40,024 bases of DNA from an uncultured Alphaproteobacteria bacterium (GTDB taxonomy: Bacteria; Pseudomonadota; Alphaproteobacteria; CAAHEQ01; UBA3637). Below, in pieces: positions 21,512 through 40,024 of this stretch; position 1 is the stretch's first letter; each line of letters begins with the position of its first letter. The stretch covers positions 1 through 40,024 of the forward strand of contig CASDQF010000047.1 in NCBI GenBank assembly GCA_949282845.1, in the 5' to 3' direction. The notes below the pieces were generated by a model. It saw only the letters and a list, made by a program, of their open reading frames with translations. It had not been told where the DNA came from and made no database searches. The position numbers and the translations under genes are program-made.

Positions 21512-22309
21512 TTAGCATCCGGTTGAAAGGTCAATCATAACGATTGGTCCTAATCGTTTAATGCAAAATGTTCCTTCAAAACGATTGATTAAGTTATCAG
21601 AGACACGTTCTGGTACATTTTCTAAATAGACAATTGGATCTTCAGATTGATCTTTGGAAACCAGACAATGAATACCCTCGACAGGAACCGGTTTACCATC
21701 CATGAAAGAAGTACAATCCTCTTTATAAATAGCTGTTGCTTCTGGTGTAATCATGGAAACAATTGCTATTGTATGGGCACTATAATCTAATAGTTGATTT
21801 GCTCTATGTCTGTTCATAGCCATTGTATAACCGGCCAATCCACCGATGATAAAAACAATAAAGCCCAGAAGAAAAGTGATAACTTCAATAACAATAAAGA
21901 CGGTACGTAAGACGGGATTGGGCTTCATGAGTTTACCGGAACTATCCGTTTTGGTGGCACAAATGCTAACAAAAACCCAGATGAAAGCGATGATATACCA
22001 AAAGCCTAGGAATAAGAAGCTCAAAGCTCCGGCCAGGCCCGGTAAAGCCATGCCTAAGATTAAAGGAAGGACAGATAAAACTGACATGAAAATACCACGT
22101 TTAATTCGACCCACGTAGAATTGATGAACACCATAAATGCCAAGGAAAAAAGCCAACAGCAAATAAACGGTCATCGATTTGGCAGAATAGTCTTCGGTCG
22201 GAATTTCCTGACTGAGTAGCGCTTCTTTTTGTTGTTTGAATTCTTCTTCCGTGATGACCCCTTTTTTCTTTAGTCGAGCCAGCTTTTCAATTTCATCATA
22301 TTTGTCCAT
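21512..22309 (-). CDS. SHOCT-TM2 membrane protein with internal pilin-like helix
   Basis: Three parts can be seen in the 265 residues. Residues 5-33 (EKLARLKKKGVITEEEFKQQ) fit the SHOCT oligomerisation motif. Residues 45-120 are a TM2 domain, with LGIYGVHQFYVGRIKRGIF and several membrane helices. Residues 138-175 resemble the N-terminal helix of a type IV pilin: IE at 141-142, a hydrophobic stretch, then GYTMAMNRHRAN (160-171), close to GFTYAMNKYKAN in the prepilin at 39857. No leader-peptide cleavage site precedes it. The last 80 residues, with Cys199, Cys215, Cys249 and Cys265, look like a small extracytoplasmic domain. It follows the LD-carboxypeptidase gene by 26 bases. TM2 domains have no single known role. 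Confidence 0.8.
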   Translation of the reverse strand: MDKYDEIEKLARLKKKGVITEEEFKQQKEALLSQEIPTEDYSAKSMTVYLLLAFFLGIYGVHQFYVGRIKRGIFMSVLSVLPLILGMALPGLAGALSFLFLGFWYIIAFIWVFVSICATKTDSSGKLMKPNPVLRTVFIVIEVITFLLGFIVFIIGGLAGYTMAMNRHRANQLLDYSAHTIAIVSMITPEATAIYKEDCTSFMDGKPVPVEGIHCLVSKDQSEDPIVYLENVPERVSDNLINRFEGTFCIKRLGPIVMIDLSTGC

Positions 22310-22335
22310 TATTGTTCCTTTCCTTTAAAAGTTGT

Positions 22336-27099: not shown

Positions 27100-29532
27100 T
27101 TATGCTTTTTCCAAATAAGCCTTGATAAAGGCTTCTTGTTCTGGAATCTGCGCTTTTAATTGTTCTGCTAATAAAACGTGCTTATTACCTGATGAATAAA
27201 TTTTCAATAAAGGTCCTAATCCGCTTAAATCCACATCTAGAATGACAGATTCATGAATAGCTGGGCGACTGACCAAAATAGCATATTTCCTGTCTGCAAA
27301 TTCTTTTCCTAAAATAAAATTCATTTCACGTGGACTGAGATTCCAGCTGGCATAATCACGTTCTGTCGCCTGTGGATTTCGGAAGAAAATAACAGTTTGA
27401 CACTGACCGCGAATCACATCACCCAACCCTTTGGCTTCCAAAAAGTTCGGTTGCTGGAAAGCACACAAGAATGCTTGACGTTTTTTACGACCTTCACGTA
27501 AACCGACAATAAAACTGTCTTTAAACATCGGATGCTCTAACATGGGCGCCGTTTCATCAATCATAATCATTGAGGGTGTTCCTTGAGCTGCTGCAACAGT
27601 ATGAATACGATGCATCAAATAACTAATAACAGCCGGAGATAAAGTTCCATCTTGGAAAATTGTTGTAAAGTCAAAAGCCATGTATTGGTGAGCTGTCATA
27701 TCTAAGTTATCTTCAACAGAGTTAAAAATGCGTCCATATTGGTCGTTGTTTACCCAACGGAATAACTCTCGGCGCATTTGACCGGCCGGAGAAAAACAGC
27801 TCTTATATAAGTTTTTTAAGAGTCTTTCTTCCGGGCGCAAATATTCAAAGGCTGTGGTGACAGCACGAGCAATTTCTTGTTCTGATAAAGCATCGGTACA
27901 TCCGGTAATATCTCTCAGCCATGTCCTTAGGAAGGCTCGGTTGTCAGAGCTATCCGGCGTTGCAAAAGGATTGAGTGTCGTAGAGCCTTCTCCACCATCA
28001 AAACGGATATATGGGGCTCCTAAAGCCAATGCAAAAACTTTAGCACCATTATTGCGGTCAAAGAAATACACATTTAAATCCGGATGGCGCATGGCTTGTC
28101 CGGCCAAGAAAGAGAACATGGTTGTTTTACCTTGTCCTGTCGGACCGATTAGGGCCGTATGCGCAACGGCATAAGGTTCTGTCGATACATGGAATTGGAA
28201 AGCATAAGCTGTTCCAGTAATCGTTCTGAAATATGAAATCGGACCGGGACCCCAGTCTGATCGTGGTAAACCTTCTGCTGTTTTATCCATACTGATGGCG
28301 CAAGCAACGACACGAGATAAATATAAGAAAGTTTTTGGATAAACATCATAAGTCGGAAATTGTGAGAAAAAAGAGGCTTGAGCAGCCCAGCCCTCTCGAA
28401 CAGGGGTTACATTATAAAAACGGCAGATCCGTTCGACTTCTTCTTGTCCGAAATTCAGTTCTTCTTTACTGTCTCCGAAAATATAAAGTGTCATTGCATA
28501 ACGGTTTAATGTTTGCGCATTGACATCAGAAGCATCCAGCATTTCCATAGCTGAAGCATATTGTTCTTGTACGCCCATGGAGGGACTTGTCAATCGAGCT
28601 TGGCGCATTTGTTGTATCAGTAAAGCATTTGCTTTAACATAAGGAATAGCTTGAATGTTGTGAACGACATTTAGTTCTACATCGATAGACAAGAGATCCG
28701 CTATCATTTGTTCATCCATGAAATCTCCTGGTTTTCGAATGCCCATAACAATGCCTAGTTTTTCTCGGTCTCCTGCGAAGAAACGAACAATCCCTTCATC
28801 TTTTGTGAAATGGACATAATCTGAAGTTAATAAAGAATTTAAATCATCTCCTGTTTGCTTTCCAACAATAGGTTTCGGACGTGTTAATGGGCTTGATAGT
28901 TGCGCAAACAACCAGAAAGGACTTTTATCATCATGTTTGTGAGGTGTCTTTTCTGAAATTAAAACAGGATGATAATTTTCTAAAATAGCATACAATGCCT
29001 GTGCTGCTTGATTTAAATCTCTTTCAGCATTTTTTCTATCATTAACTGACAGAATAATATAATGCTTGTTTTTATAAATGCGATTCAGATTCTGTATCCA
29101 GGTTGAGGCAATCCGTTGTAATAAAGGATCTTTATGCGTTTCTGCCTCACTTAATGGAATTTTTTCTCGAATTGTAATAAGGCGAGAAGTAATTTCCAAT
29201 TCTGCCATACTATCAATCCAACGTTTGCGCATTTCCATTAAAGCATTTCTTTCTTCTGGTAAAAGAAGTGTTGTATCGGCTCCTTTAATTTCAAAAACTT
29301 TTACTGTCGATCCGTTCTTGCATCGGATTGTTGCACCATCTTCTTCAAGTCTTGAAAAAGGTAAAAAATCGGATACGCGTGTTTCACGAGGACGAGGTAA
29401 AACCCATTCTCCGAATTTTGTTGCTAAAATGGCAGCAAATGAAATAGCAGAAATAATACCTATTAAAACAACCGTTGTACTCGTTGCAGTCGCTGTATTA
29501 ACAATCATTGAAAGAACGCTGGCTTCGTCCAT
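27100..29532 (-). CDS. virB4: VirB4-family T4SS ATPase
   Basis: VirB4 is the conserved inner-membrane-associated ATPase that powers pilus assembly and substrate transfer in type IV secretion. The 810-residue protein begins with a probable membrane segment at about 21-38, then the CagE/TrbE/VirB N-domain (about 60-430), which includes DEGIVRFFAGDREKLGIVMG. The RecA-like domain has Walker A GPTGQGKTT (463-471) and Walker B MIMIDE with ETAPML (655-664). The motif FLCAFQQPNFLEAKGLGDVI fits the late region of VirB4. It lies 15 bases after virB3 in a virB2-virB3-virB4 order. Nothing else of the system (virB5, B6, B8-B11, D4) is in this window. Confidence 0.9.
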   Translation of the reverse strand: MDEASVLSMIVNTATATSTTVVLIGIISAISFAAILATKFGEWVLPRPRETRVSDFLPFSRLEEDGATIRCKNGSTVKVFEIKGADTTLLLPEERNALMEMRKRWIDSMAELEITSRLITIREKIPLSEAETHKDPLLQRIASTWIQNLNRIYKNKHYIILSVNDRKNAERDLNQAAQALYAILENYHPVLISEKTPHKHDDKSPFWLFAQLSSPLTRPKPIVGKQTGDDLNSLLTSDYVHFTKDEGIVRFFAGDREKLGIVMGIRKPGDFMDEQMIADLLSIDVELNVVHNIQAIPYVKANALLIQQMRQARLTSPSMGVQEQYASAMEMLDASDVNAQTLNRYAMTLYIFGDSKEELNFGQEEVERICRFYNVTPVREGWAAQASFFSQFPTYDVYPKTFLYLSRVVACAISMDKTAEGLPRSDWGPGPISYFRTITGTAYAFQFHVSTEPYAVAHTALIGPTGQGKTTMFSFLAGQAMRHPDLNVYFFDRNNGAKVFALALGAPYIRFDGGEGSTTLNPFATPDSSDNRAFLRTWLRDITGCTDALSEQEIARAVTTAFEYLRPEERLLKNLYKSCFSPAGQMRRELFRWVNNDQYGRIFNSVEDNLDMTAHQYMAFDFTTIFQDGTLSPAVISYLMHRIHTVAAAQGTPSMIMIDETAPMLEHPMFKDSFIVGLREGRKKRQAFLCAFQQPNFLEAKGLGDVIRGQCQTVIFFRNPQATERDYASWNLSPREMNFILGKEFADRKYAILVSRPAIHESVILDVDLSGLGPLLKIYSSGNKHVLLAEQLKAQIPEQEAFIKAYLEKA

Positions 29533-31876: not shown

Positions 31877-32893
31877 ATGAAACAGGCAGTTAACAAAACG
31901 TTATTCAAAGCAACATTAACTATGACAGCTATTCTTTTGGCCGGATGTGCCGGAGAAAACAGCTCACAACAAACACCTTACACTTATTCTAGTACAGCTC
32001 AGCCAGCAGAGCCGTGTTTGTGTACGGAAACGGCTTTTCCGGAAGCACTGACTGTCGATCGGGTGGAAGTACAAGAGGTTATTATCGAAGATTCCAGCGC
32101 AATACGGTTTAAAGATAGACCTGTTTCAGCGTCAACGCCTGGTTTGGAAGAGAGAGTTGTTCCTGTAAAACAACCAAAAGTTAAAAAAGTAGCAGAACCT
32201 AAGCCTGTTCCACCGGTAGAAGTTAAACGTAAACCGGATGTTCCTGTTGAGGTTGAACCGGTTGTAGCACCGGTTGTTCCAGAAAAACCCGTTGTCGTAG
32301 AAGAAGTTGTTCCTCCTGTTCCACCAGAGGTCATAGAAAAACCAGTTGTTGAAGAAAGTTCGGATGGTTATATTAAAGAAATTAAAATTAAACAGGCTGT
32401 TGTCGGTGATCCCGTTCAAGAAGTGCGTGAAGAACCACCTTTGGTGATAGAAGAAACAGTTGTGGAAGAAAAAGTGGAGGAAGAGAAAGGTCCGACACAA
32501 GAAGAGGTCGATGCGGAGAAGGCTCGTTTACAGGCAGAGATGGATGCTTTAAAAAAACAACAGATGGATTTGGAAGCAGAAAAAGCTCGAATCGAAAAAA
32601 TGCGTGCTGAAGCTAAAGTTTGTGATGAAGTAAAAGATTGGGTTGCGGCTGAGGGTACAACGCTTCGAACATTACTGACAGAATGGGGAGATCAATCTGG
32701 CTGGAGAGTCGTCTGGAACATGGATCGTGATTACACATTAGAGGCTGGTGCTGTCTTCCGTGGTCGGTTCTTGGATGTTTCAGCGGCTTTATTACGCTCT
32801 TTTGCAAGAGCAACACCAGCTCCGAAGGGTGTTTTCTATAAGGGAAATAAAGTCTTAGTCGTCAGTACTCGGGAGGATGAGAATGCGGAATAA
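31877..32893 (+). CDS. pilL: PilL-like lipoprotein with TcpQ domain
   Basis: The 338-residue product has a lipobox LLAGC (Cys at about 23), a long Pro/Val/Glu-rich stretch (about 70-200) of the kind that spans the periplasm, a charged helix (DAEKARLQAEMDALKKQQMD) and a C-terminal TcpQ-type domain (about 245-335): WVAAEGTTLRTLLTEWGDQS, then GWRVVWNMDRDY. TcpQ domains assist or localise the secretin in type IVb pili; in R64 PilL carries one and sits before pilN, as here. GGAG nine bases before the ATG supports the start. The end overlaps pilN by 11 bases. The symbol is given by domain and order. Confidence 0.78.
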   Translation: MKQAVNKTLFKATLTMTAILLAGCAGENSSQQTPYTYSSTAQPAEPCLCTETAFPEALTVDRVEVQEVIIEDSSAIRFKDRPVSASTPGLEERVVPVKQPKVKKVAEPKPVPPVEVKRKPDVPVEVEPVVAPVVPEKPVVVEEVVPPVPPEVIEKPVVEESSDGYIKEIKIKQAVVGDPVQEVREEPPLVIEETVVEEKVEEEKGPTQEEVDAEKARLQAEMDALKKQQMDLEAEKARIEKMRAEAKVCDEVKDWVAAEGTTLRTLLTEWGDQSGWRVVWNMDRDYTLEAGAVFRGRFLDVSAALLRSFARATPAPKGVFYKGNKVLVVSTREDENAE

Positions 32894-34568
32894 AAAAAGT
32901 ATAAGTCCTATTTTGGCTGTGGGCTTAATGCTCAGCTGCCTTTTCATGACTTCCTGTAAAAATGATCATGTAAATGAAGTCAATGACAACATTCAGATGA
33001 TTTTAGATGAAGCTGAAGTCTACTCAGAACAAGCAAAAATTCCTTATACACCGGAACCAATTGACACAGTTATCAGCCGAGATGATATTTGGCTAGGAGA
33101 GGATAGCTTTAAAATTACCGGTGGAGAACCTTTTCCAATCGCATTAGAAACAAAAGATGCATTGACGGTTTCTTATAGTGATCCAATAGGCTTTGTTCCT
33201 TTAATAGATGAATTACGCGAAATGACAGGTTTGCGTTTTTCAATTGATGAATTACGAGCGAATAATGAATTGCCGGAAGAAGAGCTGCGCATCAATTATA
33301 CCGGAAGTTTGAGCGGTTTATTAGATTATTTATCTCACAAATATTCTATTTGGTGGCGTCATAGTAAAGGCCAAATTTCCTTTTATAAGATGGAAACACG
33401 AGTCTTTACTATTTATGCTTTGCCAGTGGAAAGTTCAATGAGTGCATCTTTAAGCGGAACGCCGATTAATTCTGGAGAAGGAAGTTCTGAAGGCGGAAAG
33501 ACAGAATTATCTATGTCGACAAAGGTAGAATTACAACTTTGGCAAAAGATTGAAGATGGAATTAAGCAAGTTATGGGTTCACAAGGTGAGATGTTAATTG
33601 ACTCAACATCAGGAAATGTGACTGTGACAGCGCCTCCATTTACTATTCAAAAGATTGCTCGTTATGTTCAGTCTTTAAATGAAAAGATGTCTCGTCAAGT
33701 TGCTATATCTGTAAAAGTTTTGCAAGTTTCTTTGGAAAACTCTGACCAATATGGCTTAAATTTGAATGCAGTCTTTAACTCTGGAAGTATTTCCAGCACA
33801 TTGGTTGGTCCTTTTGTTGCGCCTCAGGGATCTGCGACAGCAGGTATGTTGACAATGACGTTGTTAGATTCTAAATGGAAGGATTCGAATGCGATTATTC
33901 AAGCTTTGTCTACACAAGGAAAAACAGCATTAGTGACAAGCACTTCTGTGACAACTTTGAATAATAAAGTTGCTCCTGTTCAAGTGACAACACAAGAAAA
34001 CTATGTTAAAGAAACTACAATCGAACGAGATAATTATAATAATGACAATGGTACAACTTCCGTTGAGATGGATACCGATACTTTGAATTATGGCTTTACA
34101 ATGGAAATTTTACCACGAATTTTGGATAATGGTCGATTGATTGTCTTGTTTACCATGACATTAACAGATTTGATATCTTTGACAACTTTCTCATCTGATG
34201 GATCGTCTGGAAATAATGGTGATGATAATACCTCAGGTACAGATGATGGTACAGGTGATGGTACAGGTGATACAAATGATGATTTGTATAACAGTAATTC
34301 ATCTGATACAACGGTTGTTCAGTTGCCAAAAATGCAAACCCGTGGCTTTGTTCAAGAAATTGCAATGCGTTCAGGGTCAACATTGGTTTTAACAGGTTTT
34401 GAAACTATTCAAAACAAGACAGATACTTCTGGTGTTGGTCAGCCGAGAATTTCGATTTTAGGTGGAAAAGCATTTAGCGATCAAACACGTAATGTCTTGG
34501 TCATTTTGTTAACACCTGAAATTTTGGTATCTCCGCTGTCGCCGGAAACAAGAATGGAAAACTTCTAA
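32883..34568 (+). CDS. pilN: PilN-type outer-membrane secretin lipoprotein
   Basis: This forms the outer-membrane pore of a type IVb pilus (R64 PilN, BfpB and TcpC group). From the ATG at 32883, which has GGGAGG six bases upstream, the product is 561 residues; an ATG at 32877 is too close to that site. A lipoprotein signal ends LFMTSC. Short N-domains follow, with LREMTGLRFSIDELRANNEL, then the secretin core with ALVTSTSVTTLNNKVAPVQV, NYGFTMEILPRILDNGRLIV and VILLTPEILVSP. A low-complexity Asp/Gly/Thr/Ser insert of about 45 residues sits in the core near residue 450, probably on an exposed loop. A lipid anchor on the secretin itself is typical of the type IVb class. Confidence 0.88.
   Translation: MRNKKSISPILAVGLMLSCLFMTSCKNDHVNEVNDNIQMILDEAEVYSEQAKIPYTPEPIDTVISRDDIWLGEDSFKITGGEPFPIALETKDALTVSYSDPIGFVPLIDELREMTGLRFSIDELRANNELPEEELRINYTGSLSGLLDYLSHKYSIWWRHSKGQISFYKMETRVFTIYALPVESSMSASLSGTPINSGEGSSEGGKTELSMSTKVELQLWQKIEDGIKQVMGSQGEMLIDSTSGNVTVTAPPFTIQKIARYVQSLNEKMSRQVAISVKVLQVSLENSDQYGLNLNAVFNSGSISSTLVGPFVAPQGSATAGMLTMTLLDSKWKDSNAIIQALSTQGKTALVTSTSVTTLNNKVAPVQVTTQENYVKETTIERDNYNNDNGTTSVEMDTDTLNYGFTMEILPRILDNGRLIVLFTMTLTDLISLTTFSSDGSSGNNGDDNTSGTDDGTGDGTGDTNDDLYNSNSSDTTVVQLPKMQTRGFVQEIAMRSGSTLVLTGFETIQNKTDTSGVGQPRISILGGKAFSDQTRNVLVILLTPEILVSPLSPETRMENF
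34245..34268 (+). repeat. Tandem 12-base repeat in the secretin gene
   Basis: Two adjacent copies of GATGGTACAGGT encode DGTG twice inside the Asp/Gly/Thr-rich insert, with partial copies on both sides. Changes in copy number by multiples of 12 would keep the frame. Confidence 0.75.
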
Positions 34569-34583
34569 TAGAGGATTCAGAGA

Positions 34584-36065
34584 ATGGACGATACAAACGA
34601 AAAGGGGCAAAACTTTTTATTCCAGCCTCCGACAGGGCAGGGGGTCGGAGCAAATGACCCAGTTTTTGCATCGTCTTCTTCTGATAAGACGATGAACGCT
34701 GAAGCATCTTCTACTGTTCAAAATCAGGATACTGATAATGAGGAAGAGGAAAGTACTGCTCAGTTAGAATCTTCTGTTATTAAATTAGGGCGGCAAGAAT
34801 ATGCGGTCGGGTTGTTTTGGCAGCCCTTACAAGATGTTGATGATCCTATTCACGAAATTCGTGAAACAATGGAATCAGATGAAGGTGCTAATTTATATGC
34901 AATTCACTATGGTAGGGCTCCTCAGTATGGTATCGGGAAAAAGTCAAAAGGTCATCAAGAGGGACAAATTGTCGCCGGTATCTCTGTATTGGATGCTTTA
35001 TCGGATAAATCTTCTTTTGTCGCAGTTTTTAAGGTGGAAGAAGGATGGTGGTTTATTGCTGTTCGCAATGATTTAATACTACCGGAAGAAGATGTTCTCT
35101 ACAAAAATGAAAATGAAGCAAAAGATGCCTTTTTCTCAATGATGGCCGTTCCGGATTGGGGATATAAAATAGCTCCGGACACATGGCATATTGACGGTAC
35201 GGAAGAGATGGACTTGGAAGAACTGATTAAAAATACTTTCCAAGCACGTCTTTTAAGTCTAAGTGCTGCCCGAGGAACAAAAATTTTATTAGCAATCGCA
35301 GCGCTGATTTTGTTATTAGTTGCTGTCATTGTTTATTTGGTTATTTTCCTTTTAGATAGAGCAACACAAACACCGACAAAAATTGCTCCTGTTATCCCTC
35401 AGGCGACCATTAAAACGGTAGAACCGACAAGAGAAGAAGAAAAACCTTGGGAAAAATTAGTTGAAGTCAATCCATTCCTTGAGAGATGTTGGAGCTACGC
35501 TTATCAAATGAAGTCTATGCAAGTTCCTGGATGGTCATTGAACCAAATTGTTTGTACTCCAAAAGGGATTTCGACAGGATGGAATAAATCTTGGACGCCA
35601 GGTGGTCGTATAGCTTGGTTAACGGCAGCTTATGATGAATACAAATTTACGGAGGTTCCGAGTATTAATGAGTCTGGCACAGCTGCGACAATTTCGATTA
35701 AATTTGATGATTTACCAATTGTTGCTTCAACACCAACTTTGTCAATTGCTCGGATACGTCGCGAATTAACAGATATTTCTCAGGCGATTAACTTGCCGAT
35801 AGCCATGTCTGTTCAGCAAATTACAGTAGGTGGAGCTACTCCGGAACAACAGAAAGCAGCTCAAGCTGCTGGACAACCTGTTCCTGTCGGAAAGACTTAT
35901 AAGTATTTAACTTTTTCGTTTTCATCATCTTATGATCCACCGGCATGGGAGTCGTTTTTTGATAAATTTGCGGCTTTGGAACTCGTGAAGATTGAGTACA
36001 ATCCACAGTCGTCATCAGCATTATCTAATAACTGGAAGTATGAGGGAAGAATCTATGAAAAATAA
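34584..36065 (+). CDS. pilO: PilO-type pilus assembly inner-membrane protein
   Basis: The 493-residue protein has a cytoplasmic N-terminal part with EYAVGLFWQPLQD, resembling the start of the R64 PilO family (PAP_PilO), a membrane segment at about 232-252 (LLAIAALILLLVAVIVYLV), and a periplasmic C-terminal part with a compact domain near the end. PilO proteins link the inner-membrane platform to PilP and the secretin. It lies 15 bases after pilN and overlaps pilP by 11 bases. The PilO call rests on this topology, the N-terminal match and gene order. Confidence 0.75.
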   Translation: MDDTNEKGQNFLFQPPTGQGVGANDPVFASSSSDKTMNAEASSTVQNQDTDNEEEESTAQLESSVIKLGRQEYAVGLFWQPLQDVDDPIHEIRETMESDEGANLYAIHYGRAPQYGIGKKSKGHQEGQIVAGISVLDALSDKSSFVAVFKVEEGWWFIAVRNDLILPEEDVLYKNENEAKDAFFSMMAVPDWGYKIAPDTWHIDGTEEMDLEELIKNTFQARLLSLSAARGTKILLAIAALILLLVAVIVYLVIFLLDRATQTPTKIAPVIPQATIKTVEPTREEEKPWEKLVEVNPFLERCWSYAYQMKSMQVPGWSLNQIVCTPKGISTGWNKSWTPGGRIAWLTAAYDEYKFTEVPSINESGTAATISIKFDDLPIVASTPTLSIARIRRELTDISQAINLPIAMSVQQITVGGATPEQQKAAQAAGQPVPVGKTYKYLTFSFSSSYDPPAWESFFDKFAALELVKIEYNPQSSSALSNNWKYEGRIYEK

Positions 36066-36975
36066 AATTTTATCACATGTAATGGTTATGACAGCCTTTG
36101 GGCTTATCTTCACCTGTTCTCCTCTGAATGCGCAGGAGTCTCCAGCGCTCGTCACTTCCGAAGAGCCAACACCGGTCGATTTCCCGGGTCGTTCTTCCTT
36201 GGGTGAAATGAAGGAGGCAACATTGCCTAATTTAACGGATAGCGTTATTAAAGGACCTTCTCCGATGGGCGTTGTTGTTTCTAAAAAAGCACCTCCCAGT
36301 GAACAGCTTTTGGGACGTATTACCAGCGAAGTTTTTCATGAAATGGCAGACCTAGAAAGAGGAAATGTGTTTTTAAAACTTCAGACACAACGTGAGCAAT
36401 TAAAAAATGATCTAGAAAAATTAAAAGCTGCTTATCGGCAAGCGCGTTTGGATGAAATTGAAAAAAGAGAAAATGTTATTCGAACACGTGTCGAATGGAT
36501 GCAGGAACAAGAACGTATTCGTCAAGAAATTTTAGAGAAAAAACTGCAAACTGAGCTGTTGGAAAAAGAAATAGAAGAAGCGGAGTTGCGTAAAGAAGAG
36601 TTGCTAAAACCGAAGAAAGAAAAAGAAAATACAACGGTTTCTCCTTCTGAGGAAGTCGTAGCGGCAGAAGAAGAGGTCATTTCTGAAGAAACACCAATTG
36701 TTGAACCAGAAGGATTGCCAATGTTAACTATTTTAGACATTAAAGGTATGAAGAACCGTTTAACAGCTCGCTTGGTTGATGCGGAAGGACGTGTCCGTTC
36801 TGTTAAAGTTGGCTCAATCTTACCATCCGGTCATGTAGTTAAATCTATTGAAAAAACAGAAATTGTTTTCGAAAAAGATGGTAAACCAGAGATGTTGGCC
36901 ATAGAAACATTTGTTCCTGTTAAAAAAACAGTAAACACTGAAGAAACAACGAACCTTGAGGAAATTGAAGAGTAG
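36055..36975 (+). CDS. pilP: PilP-type pilus assembly protein
   Basis: The 306-residue precursor has a signal peptide ending PLNA, a central charged coiled coil (about 95-195, rich in Glu, Lys and Arg), an acidic linker and a small C-terminal domain: LTILDIKGMKNRLTARLVDA, then VRSVKVGSILPSGHVV. That resembles the R64 PilP family and the homology region of GspC/PilP proteins, which contact the secretin. In-frame upstream starts from 35992 lie inside pilO; the ATG at 36055 follows GAGGGAAGA and begins a good signal peptide. It is three bases from pilQ. Confidence 0.78.
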   Translation: MKNKILSHVMVMTAFGLIFTCSPLNAQESPALVTSEEPTPVDFPGRSSLGEMKEATLPNLTDSVIKGPSPMGVVVSKKAPPSEQLLGRITSEVFHEMADLERGNVFLKLQTQREQLKNDLEKLKAAYRQARLDEIEKRENVIRTRVEWMQEQERIRQEILEKKLQTELLEKEIEEAELRKEELLKPKKEKENTTVSPSEEVVAAEEEVISEETPIVEPEGLPMLTILDIKGMKNRLTARLVDAEGRVRSVKVGSILPSGHVVKSIEKTEIVFEKDGKPEMLAIETFVPVKKTVNTEETTNLEEIEE

Positions 36976-36978
36976 CAG

Positions 36979-38679
36979 ATGGCAAACGAAGAAGTTAAAG
37001 AACAATCTGAAGTATCAGAGAGTGTTGCGCCGCCAGAAAAAGCAGCAGAATTATTAACAGCGACTTCAAATGAAGAAGGTCCTCGCCGTCTTGTCACTTC
37101 TTCGCCTGAGTTTATTGCTTCTTTATTTGCCGATGGAAATGAGTGTATTACAGCTCCGTCTGGTGCTTTTCCTGTAAAGGATGAAACCCGTTTAATTCTT
37201 GCTTTATTCTCTAATGGCCGATTTTTAGTGGCTGAGCCATATCGACATGATGGTCGTGTTCTATCATTCCAAGTTTTGGCACGCAAACGAAATTTACAAA
37301 TCGGAGAGCCTGAATGCGTGTCTATGGCTGTTATTTCTGATATTTATGAATATGCGAATAAACGTCCAACGGCGACAGCCGAAGTTGTGGATGAGCAAGA
37401 TCAAATTCGGATGCAGCGTGACTTTGTGACGATTGTCACACACGCAGCTAAAATGAAAGTATCAGATATTCATATTATTGTTGCAGATCATACAACAGTT
37501 ATGTTTCGTATAAATGGTTTGTTGCAAGCGGAAATGGAATATAATAACGAATGGGGAGAGGCATTTGTTCGTGCAGCTTTCGCATCTGCGGATATTTCTG
37601 ATTCTAACTACGCTCAAAATGAATATCAATCTGCTCAGAAATCTGGTAAAACGCCATTAAGAGGGTCTAGAGGACGTCTTATGCTTCCTCCTGAAGTATT
37701 GGCTATCCGTTTACAGTTTAACCCGATTGCTTTCGGAACGCGCTATGTTGTCATGCGTTTGTTATATGCAGATACAGGTGCATCTATTAATGATCCGGCT
37801 AGTAATTTAGCTTCTTTAGGCTTTACGCCGGAAGAAGTAGATACATTTTATCGGTTGCGTGCTATGCCCATTGGGTTGGTTTTCGTTTCGGGACCAACCG
37901 GAAGTGGTAAAAGTACAACATTGCAACGCAATATGATTAATATGCTAAAAGAGCGCAATTATGAAATTAACCTGATTACTGTGGAGGATCCACCGGAATA
38001 TCCTATTCCCGGTGCACGGCAAATGCCGGTGACTAATGCAGGTATTGAAGAAGCAAAAGAACGTGAATTTACAAAGGCTTTATCAGCAGCTTTACGTTCA
38101 GATCCTGATATGTTAATGATCGGTGAAATTCGAACATTATCCGCTGCAGATTTGGCATTTAGAGGTGCTTTGTCAGGTCATGGCGTGTGGACAACAGTTC
38201 ACGCTAATAGTGCACCGGCTACCTTGATTCGTTTAAAGGATATGGGTGTTGAGGACTTTAAATTAGAGGATCCTAGTCTTATTCGAGGTCTGGTAGCGCA
38301 GCGTTTATTTAGAACTGTTTGTCCTTATTGTCGTATACCGGCAAAGGATGATTTACAGAATCAAACAGTTCAACGATTAAAGTCAGCTTTGGGTGATTTT
38401 GGATTAGAGCATGCTTATTTGCGTGGAAAAGGATGTCCAAAATGTGATTATCGGGGTGTTGTCGGACGAACTGTTGTGGCAGAGTTTTTAGTTCCTGATT
38501 CTAACTTTTTGGATTTAATGTTAAAGGGAGAAACTAAAAAAGCCATCAACTATTGGACAGAAGATTTAAATGGTCGAACATTAAAAGATAATGCAATTTC
38601 TCGGATGCTTAAAGGAGTTGTAGATATTGAGGAAGTTGAGCGCTGGACAGGTCTTTTGGATGAACGTGGCACTTATTAA
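36979..38679 (+). CDS. pilQ: PilQ-type pilus assembly ATPase (GspE family)
   Basis: This is the secretion ATPase that drives pilus extension at the cytoplasmic face; the name follows R64, where PilQ is the ATPase and not the secretin. The 566-residue protein has an N-domain (to about 150), then the catalytic core: Walker A GPTGSGKST (305-313), Asp box TVEDPPEYP (about 334-342), Walker B DPDMLMIGEIR (375-385) and His box VWTTVHAN (403-410). A zinc tetracysteine motif is complete: Cys448, Cys451, Cys486 and Cys489. No retraction ATPase (PilT) is seen in the window. The stop is 13 bases before pilR. Confidence 0.92.
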   Translation: MANEEVKEQSEVSESVAPPEKAAELLTATSNEEGPRRLVTSSPEFIASLFADGNECITAPSGAFPVKDETRLILALFSNGRFLVAEPYRHDGRVLSFQVLARKRNLQIGEPECVSMAVISDIYEYANKRPTATAEVVDEQDQIRMQRDFVTIVTHAAKMKVSDIHIIVADHTTVMFRINGLLQAEMEYNNEWGEAFVRAAFASADISDSNYAQNEYQSAQKSGKTPLRGSRGRLMLPPEVLAIRLQFNPIAFGTRYVVMRLLYADTGASINDPASNLASLGFTPEEVDTFYRLRAMPIGLVFVSGPTGSGKSTTLQRNMINMLKERNYEINLITVEDPPEYPIPGARQMPVTNAGIEEAKEREFTKALSAALRSDPDMLMIGEIRTLSAADLAFRGALSGHGVWTTVHANSAPATLIRLKDMGVEDFKLEDPSLIRGLVAQRLFRTVCPYCRIPAKDDLQNQTVQRLKSALGDFGLEHAYLRGKGCPKCDYRGVVGRTVVAEFLVPDSNFLDLMLKGETKKAINYWTEDLNGRTLKDNAISRMLKGVVDIEEVERWTGLLDERGTY

Positions 38680-38692
38680 AGGAAAGTTATAG

Positions 38693-39814
38693 ATGGCAGC
38701 ACAGGATACAAATCGTCAACATTATGTCGCTAAAAGACGTCGTTCTCTGAGTGGCGCCGAAGTTGCTTATGCTAAGTTTATGATGAAGGTGAGCCAGAAT
38801 GATCGTTTACGGATTTATCGAAAGCTGGCATCTTTATTAAGAAACCGGTTCTCTTTAATGGATGCCTTGGAAAGGTTATATGATATTGCGTCAAATAACG
38901 GAAAAAGCCCAGGGGATACGACAGCGATTGCCATTACACATTGGATGCGTTCTTTACAAAATGGTGAGAGTTTTTCTGCTGCTTTAAGAGGATGGGCTCC
39001 TCAGAGTGAGCTATTAATGCTTTCTGTGGGGGATATTGCTAATTTAGATGATGCACTATCTAATCTTATTCATGTTGTTGAAGGGACTAAGCGTATGAAA
39101 GAACCATTGGTTGGTGCATTAGCTTATCCGATGTTCTTGATGGTTATGGTTGTGTTGCTTATTTGGGCAGTCGGAGCGTTTATGGTGCCTCCTATGGTTG
39201 ATGCAGTTCCTGATTTGCAATGGCGGGGTCAAGCAAAAGCTTTGGTCGGATTATCGAATTGGGTGCGTTATAATACGTTTATTTTGTTTTCTATTTTACC
39301 AATTTTATTTAGTTTTATCACATGGACTATGCCTCGGTGGAAAGGGCATTTGAGGGCTAAATTTGATAGTATTCCTCCTTGGAACTTATATCGAATTTTT
39401 GTGGGTGTATCATGGCTTTTATCATTATCAGCTTTAGTAAAAGCAGGGACACCCGTTTCAAAAGCTCTTCGCTTATTGCGTGCAGATTCTTCTCCCTATC
39501 TTTTGTATCGGATTGAGCGTGCACTCATTTATGTAAATAATGGTGAGAATTTGGGAGAAGCTTTATATCACACTGAGTTAAATTTCCCAGATAAAGAAGT
39601 TATCGGCGACTTACAAATTTATGCGGAGTTAGATAACTTCCAAGTAGCTTTAGATCAATTAGCCAATGATTGGTTGGAAGATAGTATTCGTGATATCGAA
39701 CAAAAGGCAGCGGTTTTGAATGGTTTTGCCATTTTGTTAATTGCAGCCATCGTTGCTTGGGTTGTCATGGGTACCTTTGATATGCAGGATCAATTGGTCT
39801 CTGGAATGGGATAA
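38693..39814 (+). CDS. pilR: PilR-type pilus platform protein (GspF family)
   Basis: GspF-type proteins form the inner-membrane platform rotated by the ATPase. The 373-residue protein has a cytoplasmic start with RKLASLLRNRFSLMDALERL, a first membrane segment at about 143-165 (YPMFLMVMVVLLIWAVGAF), a second near 205-222, a second cytoplasmic repeat (WLLSLSALVKAGTPVSKALR) and a last membrane segment near residue 350 (GFAILLIAAIVAWVVMG). The duplicated GspF domain is thus present. AAAGGAAAG precedes the ATG. The pilin gene follows after 42 bases. Confidence 0.9.
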   Translation: MAAQDTNRQHYVAKRRRSLSGAEVAYAKFMMKVSQNDRLRIYRKLASLLRNRFSLMDALERLYDIASNNGKSPGDTTAIAITHWMRSLQNGESFSAALRGWAPQSELLMLSVGDIANLDDALSNLIHVVEGTKRMKEPLVGALAYPMFLMVMVVLLIWAVGAFMVPPMVDAVPDLQWRGQAKALVGLSNWVRYNTFILFSILPILFSFITWTMPRWKGHLRAKFDSIPPWNLYRIFVGVSWLLSLSALVKAGTPVSKALRLLRADSSPYLLYRIERALIYVNNGENLGEALYHTELNFPDKEVIGDLQIYAELDNFQVALDQLANDWLEDSIRDIEQKAAVLNGFAILLIAAIVAWVVMGTFDMQDQLVSGMG

Positions 39815-39856: not shown

Positions 39857-40024
39857 ATGCAAAAGAAATCCAATTTAGGCCGCAGCATGATAGAGATGCT
39901 GGGCGTACTGGTTATTATAGGCGTATTGAGCGTAGCGGCATTATTTGGATTTACCTATGCGATGAACAAGTATAAAGCGAACGAGACGATTCATGATGTG
40001 ATGTTACGTGCCTCGAATGTCCCG
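39857..40024 (+). CDS. pilS: Type IV prepilin, cut by window end
   Basis: Only the first 56 residues are in the window. They form a textbook type IV prepilin start: short basic leader MQKKSNLG, prepilin-peptidase site after Gly8, then RSMIE with glutamate at mature position 5, followed by a hydrophobic helix (MLGVLVIIGVLSVAALFGF) and an amphipathic part (AMNKYKANETIHD). Position +1 is arginine rather than the phenylalanine or methionine common elsewhere. AAAGGAGAAG precedes the ATG. By order it corresponds to R64 pilS, the major pilin, but it could be a minor pilin. Codons gcg, ggc, gta, ctg and agc are more frequent than in pilR next door. Confidence 0.88.
   Translation, partial: MQKKSNLGRSMIEMLGVLVIIGVLSVAALFGFTYAMNKYKANETIHDVMLRASNVP

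Follow-up and report, generated by a model that had tools for sequence, protein, structure and literature searches.

A type IV pilin domain carried by a conserved SHOCT-TM2 membrane protein in Alphaproteobacteria

The far half of a 265-residue membrane protein encoded by an uncultured alphaproteobacterium is a genuine type IV pilin domain that comprises the mid-portion of the pilin helix together with the entire globular head. Pilin domains normally stand at the N terminus, behind a cleaved leader; in this protein, the pilin helix comes only after about 130 residues of SHOCT-TM2. The fusion gene occupies positions 21512 to 22309 of the window (the whole 40,024-nucleotide stretch of DNA that was analyzed) on the reverse strand, as does every part of it described below, and was delineated as an open reading frame with Pfam matches to SHOCT and TM2 and with orthologues in the order. 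A ribosome-binding-like GGAAAGGAA lies among the upstream bases, immediately 5' of the ATG (22315 to 22323, reverse strand). An internal start at Met128, a residue common to all three species of the genus, was considered and thought unlikely, given that it has neither a clear ribosome-binding site nor a cleavage Gly.

The SHOCT domain (residues 5 to 32, positions 22214 to 22297; PF09851, 31.5 bits versus a cutoff of 27), which is predicted to be cytoplasmic, is N-terminal in this protein, whereas elsewhere SHOCT is predominantly C-terminal (PMC3581485). It is followed by TM2 (residues 43 to 85, positions 22055 to 22183; PF05154, 41.7 bits versus a cutoff of 27.9) and by a long hydrophobic stretch, delimited by hydropathy, the AlphaFold2 (AF2) model and alignment, that covers the 53 residues from 69 to 121 (21947 to 22105); AF2 places helices at 69 to 88 and 91 to 118 within it, and most relatives have a shorter stretch. 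The pilin long helix α1 then spans residues 132 to 187 (21749 to 21916), as given by the AF2 helix and segment identities, and the globular head spans residues 188 to 265 (21515 to 21748), as given by the sequence match, AF2, structural neighbors and cysteine positions. The first ~120 residues are thus those of SHOCT-TM2 proteins (PF09851 plus PF05154), but ordinary proteins of this kind stop after TM2, whereas the fusion continues into the pilin helix and head.

The pilin half was noticed in a sequence-only reading, which aligned 32 residues of the helix without gaps to a prepilin gene at 39857 to 40024 (forward strand) and counted 12 identities. That count is exact, and the similarity exceeds chance (pairwise BLASTP E value of 6e-6; none of 200 local shuffles scores as high). 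The contig ends within this prepilin gene, which closes a type IVb pilus operon on the same contig; the rest of the operon, annotated with Pfam (31877 to 39814, forward strand), encodes TcpQ, a secretin, PilO, the product of an ORF without a Pfam match, the T2SSE ATPase and the T2SSF platform protein. A CagE/TrbE/VirB4-family protein of type IV secretion is encoded near this operon, at 27103 to 29532. The homology spans the entire pilin head and is not confined to the 32-residue helix segment: residues 140 to 245 align with four complete prepilins encoded by the same genome, arranged as two tandem pairs (two on C36 and two on C40), with 40 to 43% identity and E values from 7e-20 to 2e-16. When a profile of 12 fusions was compared with a profile of 14 prepilins in hhalign, the two matched over 114 columns (probability 99.8, E value of 1.5e-29). 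No pilin family was called in the fusion protein by Pfam, NCBIfam made no calls on it (TIGR02532 was unmatched), and a profile search against PDB sequences returned no match. The prepilin matches (E value of 7e-20) and the profile match (1.5e-29) nevertheless rule out that the segment is an ordinary helix of the TM2 family. The earlier suggestion that the protein descends from a pilin gene is correct for its pilin half.

The AF2 model of the fusion protein (mean pLDDT of 85.5) predicts a pilin fold, with a 56-residue helix at residues 132 to 187, strands within residues 194 to 260 and the element order H-E-E-E-H-E-E, the same order as modeled for a resident prepilin. Thus, the helix and antiparallel β-sheet head that characterize a type IV pilin domain are both predicted, alongside the sequence homology to prepilins. 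Among the best eight rows of a VIA-align comparison with model residues 149 to 265, seven are type IV pilins and one is a protein named PilM; the pilins include 9iuf (Z of 8.3, rmsd of 2.7 over 114 residues), 7t31 (Z of 7.8), 6t8s (Z of 6.7) and 3hrv (Z of 6.2), and the neighbors of the prepilin model are largely the same. Because Foldseek alone yielded weak pilin matches (PilW, E value of 0.1), the assignment of the fold rests on homology first. The type IVb pilins TcpA, CofA and that of ETEC (9iuf), as well as the resident prepilins, share with the fusion the long helix, the antiparallel-sheet head, the element order and a cysteine pair, and the resident prepilins are also homologous in sequence over the head. 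Conversely, these pilins lack the SHOCT and TM2 domains that precede the pilin helix of the fusion and the extra membrane helices that anchor it, and the fusion lacks their leader, cleavage site and conserved Glu5.

The pilin helix of the fusions has diverged in one half and been retained in the other. As the sequence-only reading had noted, there is no cleavage site: Val137, not Gly, precedes the +1 position, so that the Gly-containing leader of a polymerizing prepilin subunit is absent. Glu5 fared differently. The Ile-Glu pair equated with it (Ile141-Glu142) is a real local match in the window protein, but it is not a feature of the family, for only two of the 13 fused proteins, the window protein and that of genome G002, have Glu at this place; the other 11 have Gly, Ala, Val, Leu, Ile, Cys or Trp, with Gly in the protein of G001, from the same genus as the window protein. 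Over the first 18 helix residues, LDY-type prepilins are 98% identical to one another, and the fusions are 11 to 38% identical to the prepilins; over the next 22 residues, identity between fusions and prepilins rises to 48 to 87%. The conserved mid-helix motif GGLAGYTMAMNRHRANQLLDY (residues 156 to 176, positions 21782 to 21844), defined by alignment with resident prepilins, is identical to theirs in its first 17 residues and ends in LLDY versus ILDY or VLDY. The DNA encoding these 17 residues differs from that of the resident prepilins at 6 to 8 of 51 bases, all silent, so the mid-helix was not copied recently by gene conversion. The first half of a pilin helix, including Glu5, holds subunits in the filament core. 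By these sequence comparisons, the filament-core half has drifted into a plain membrane helix, and the periplasm-proximal motif and the head have been retained. The resident prepilins that were read have Arg at +1, and prepilin peptidase (PF01478) was found in 40 of the 43 genomes of the order, with its usual N-terminal part (PF06750) in 0 of 43.

A full-length fusion is present in 12 of the 43 genomes of the order, in seven genera (E values of 6.5e-78 or lower), and a search for relatives combined with ORF reading likewise recovered the SHOCT-TM2-pilin architecture in 12 genomes. Fusions also occur in two genomes of a second alphaproteobacterial family, and sampling 385 genomes from the class and 398 from the phylum revealed none beyond these two families; in a scan of named species, all the fusions read were in Alphaproteobacteria records, mostly gut metagenome assemblies. 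The gene order around the fusion is kept across three species of the genus, and the pilin part has a dN/dS of 0.16 to 0.27 within the genus. The architecture is therefore conserved and under purifying selection.

Variants of the architecture were identified as well. In one (L197), SHOCT is joined straight to the pilin helix and head, without TM2, and in another (L203), TM2 is followed by a degenerate head-like region, without SHOCT. SHOCT-TM2 proteins of G020 and G061 (L020, L036 and L048) stop at the pilin motif, in GYxxALQ or YMAALQ, an ending suggestive of loss of the pilin head. Relatives that end in GYxxALQ would fit a decaying or chance fusion, and the ends of contigs within pilin genes in these genomes would fit an assembly chimera. 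Such explanations are nonetheless scarcely credible, given that the same architecture recurs in 12 separate assemblies, gene order is constant in three species of the genus, dN/dS is well below 1 and the first half of the helix is too diverged for a misjoin; the orthologues and dN/dS rule out a pseudogene or misassembly. Contigs end inside pilin genes both in the window (at 40024) and in G009 (L158 and L159); assemblies may break at pilin-helix DNA because it is so highly conserved. The genome of the window has 30 pilin-helix matches, some of which start long cysteine-rich proteins (L007 and L008, with open frames of 826 and 420 amino acids), and G017 has 57.

All 43 genomes of the order have a T2SSE match, and 31 of them carry pilus ATPase genes but no full-length fusion; the fusion is therefore not essential for pili. 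Pilus genes were detected in every fusion genome tested, so homologues in species devoid of type IV pili, which would have spoken against a link to pilins, were not encountered.

The fusion gene is not part of the pilus operon; its neighbors are an LD-carboxypeptidase-like gene and a response regulator gene, and stand-alone SHOCT-TM2 genes adjoin the fusion in several genomes, with no pilus genes nearby. Furthermore, the heads evolve fast in several genera, as seen from long branches. These observations are compatible with generic reuse of the pilin head as an ordinary periplasmic domain that binds a ligand or the cell wall, in a role unrelated to pili. On the other side, among the genomes tested, fusions occur solely where type IVb pilus genes are present, and in one genome (G010), a stand-alone SHOCT-TM2 gene lies next to the prepilin peptidase gene in divergent orientation, and two paired prepilins are encoded a few kilobases away. 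The gene directly after the fusion in G014 encodes a DUF805 protein whose N terminus matches SHOCT weakly (L206, 4223 to 4864), and DUF805 proteins with SHOCT-like N termini occur elsewhere in the order.

The resemblance of the fused heads to resident pilins also counts against generic reuse, which on balance we regard as doubtful. Three genera possess fusions as well as LDY-type prepilins; there, the best-scoring prepilins of this type for a fused head come from its own genus in seven of seven cases, with thin margins for genera g1 and g8 (for the window protein, 60.0 versus 59.7 bits) and with related sequences that are not independent. The cysteine spacing follows the same pattern. Counted from GYxxA, the cysteines lie at offsets 39 and 55 in the g1 fusions and in nearly all g1 prepilins (two have 38 and 54), and at 20 with 37 to 40 in g8 and g9, the exception being one SHOCT-only fusion with 20 and 56. 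Sequence and profile matches, the predicted fold and conservation all support the reading of the window protein as an uncleaved pilin segment behind the SHOCT-TM2 part, followed by a cysteine-bearing pilin head. The cysteine pair of this head, Cys199 and one in the Cys213 region, is predicted to form a disulfide and is spaced as in the resident prepilins. G010 has two fused heads, and both fall among the g9 prepilins (98/94 and 100/85). A fusion of the second family (G207) has a different head, of its own family's pilin type (E values of 1e-26 and 1.5e-22; clade support of 100/100).

A common origin for all the fused heads is compatible with AU tests (p of 0.22 to 0.25), and the tracking of resident pilins could therefore partly reflect shared ancestry. 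For the TM2 parts, a single clade of fusions set against stand-alone TM2 proteins is rejected (p of 9e-5), a result that could reflect loss of heads. Repeated capture of resident pilin heads is a lead, not a result. A broader conjecture, on the doubtful side but worth stating, is that these are tethered pilins, in which a cell's own pilin head was placed on a SHOCT(-TM2) base more than once, and that like-with-like recognition would serve to report or limit the pilin pool.

With respect to topology, SHOCT would probably be cytoplasmic, with TM2 in the membrane, the pilin helix crossing the membrane and the head most likely periplasmic. SHOCT inside and an even number of prior passes would place the head in the periplasm, where prepilins have theirs, and leave the lysine-bearing linker that leads into the pilin helix on the inside; the 53-residue hydrophobic stretch in the genus of the window permits a reading with a cytoplasmic head. 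Because the fusion has no peptidase site, no free mature N terminus, no conserved Glu5 and extra membrane helices, it should be neither extracted nor polymerized. Because the retained mid-helix and head resemble the resident prepilins most, homotypic contact with those pilins at the inner membrane would be its most likely job, and the SHOCT-TM2 part might signal the status of the pilin pool or hold assembly back. We tentatively favor, at somewhat less than even confidence, a membrane-locked, nonpolymerizable pilin paralogue that contacts resident pilins and acts as a sensor of the pool or a regulator of assembly. The sequence-only reading had proposed a permanent membrane base, an initiator or a decoy; as such an element of assembly, the protein would dock with the first pilins or the platform protein. 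A complete head and conserved mid-helix could pack against pilins, and the extra membrane helices should retain the protein in the membrane; nevertheless, the divergence of the first helix half, Glu5 included, and the absence of the gene from most piliated relatives make such a role unlikely.

The membrane-locked paralogue has a possible functional parallel in the PilS-PilA system of Pseudomonas, where an inner-membrane protein reads the pilin pool by direct contact (PMC6058289). The analogy suggests that the fusion might read the pool in a similar manner, as both are multipass inner-membrane proteins with pilin contact, proposed in the case of the fusion; it is a comparison of workings only, as PilS is a kinase and not a pilin, whereas the fusion has no kinase domain. 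In agreement with the sequence-only reading, the literature searched contained no described TM2-pilin fusion. No paper was found that treats the TM2 domain, SHOCT and pilin together, and single matches that pair "TM2 domain" with "type IV pil" or "prepilin" appear to be omics papers on other organisms. Nor was any paper found that links pilin to RF32, which may be the order concerned. The paper on SHOCT mentions TM2-SHOCT-helix-hairpin-helix proteins, and the word "pilin" is absent from it (PMC3581485).

A conserved, membrane-bound and nonpolymerizing pilin head would show a second use of the pilin fold, in a protein that separates the job of the head from that of the helix. To our knowledge, no function has been assigned to SHOCT-TM2 membrane proteins. 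If the fusion reads or restrains resident pilins, it would provide a handle on how order is kept in cells that carry dozens of pilin genes, as well as a first hint of a role for SHOCT-TM2.
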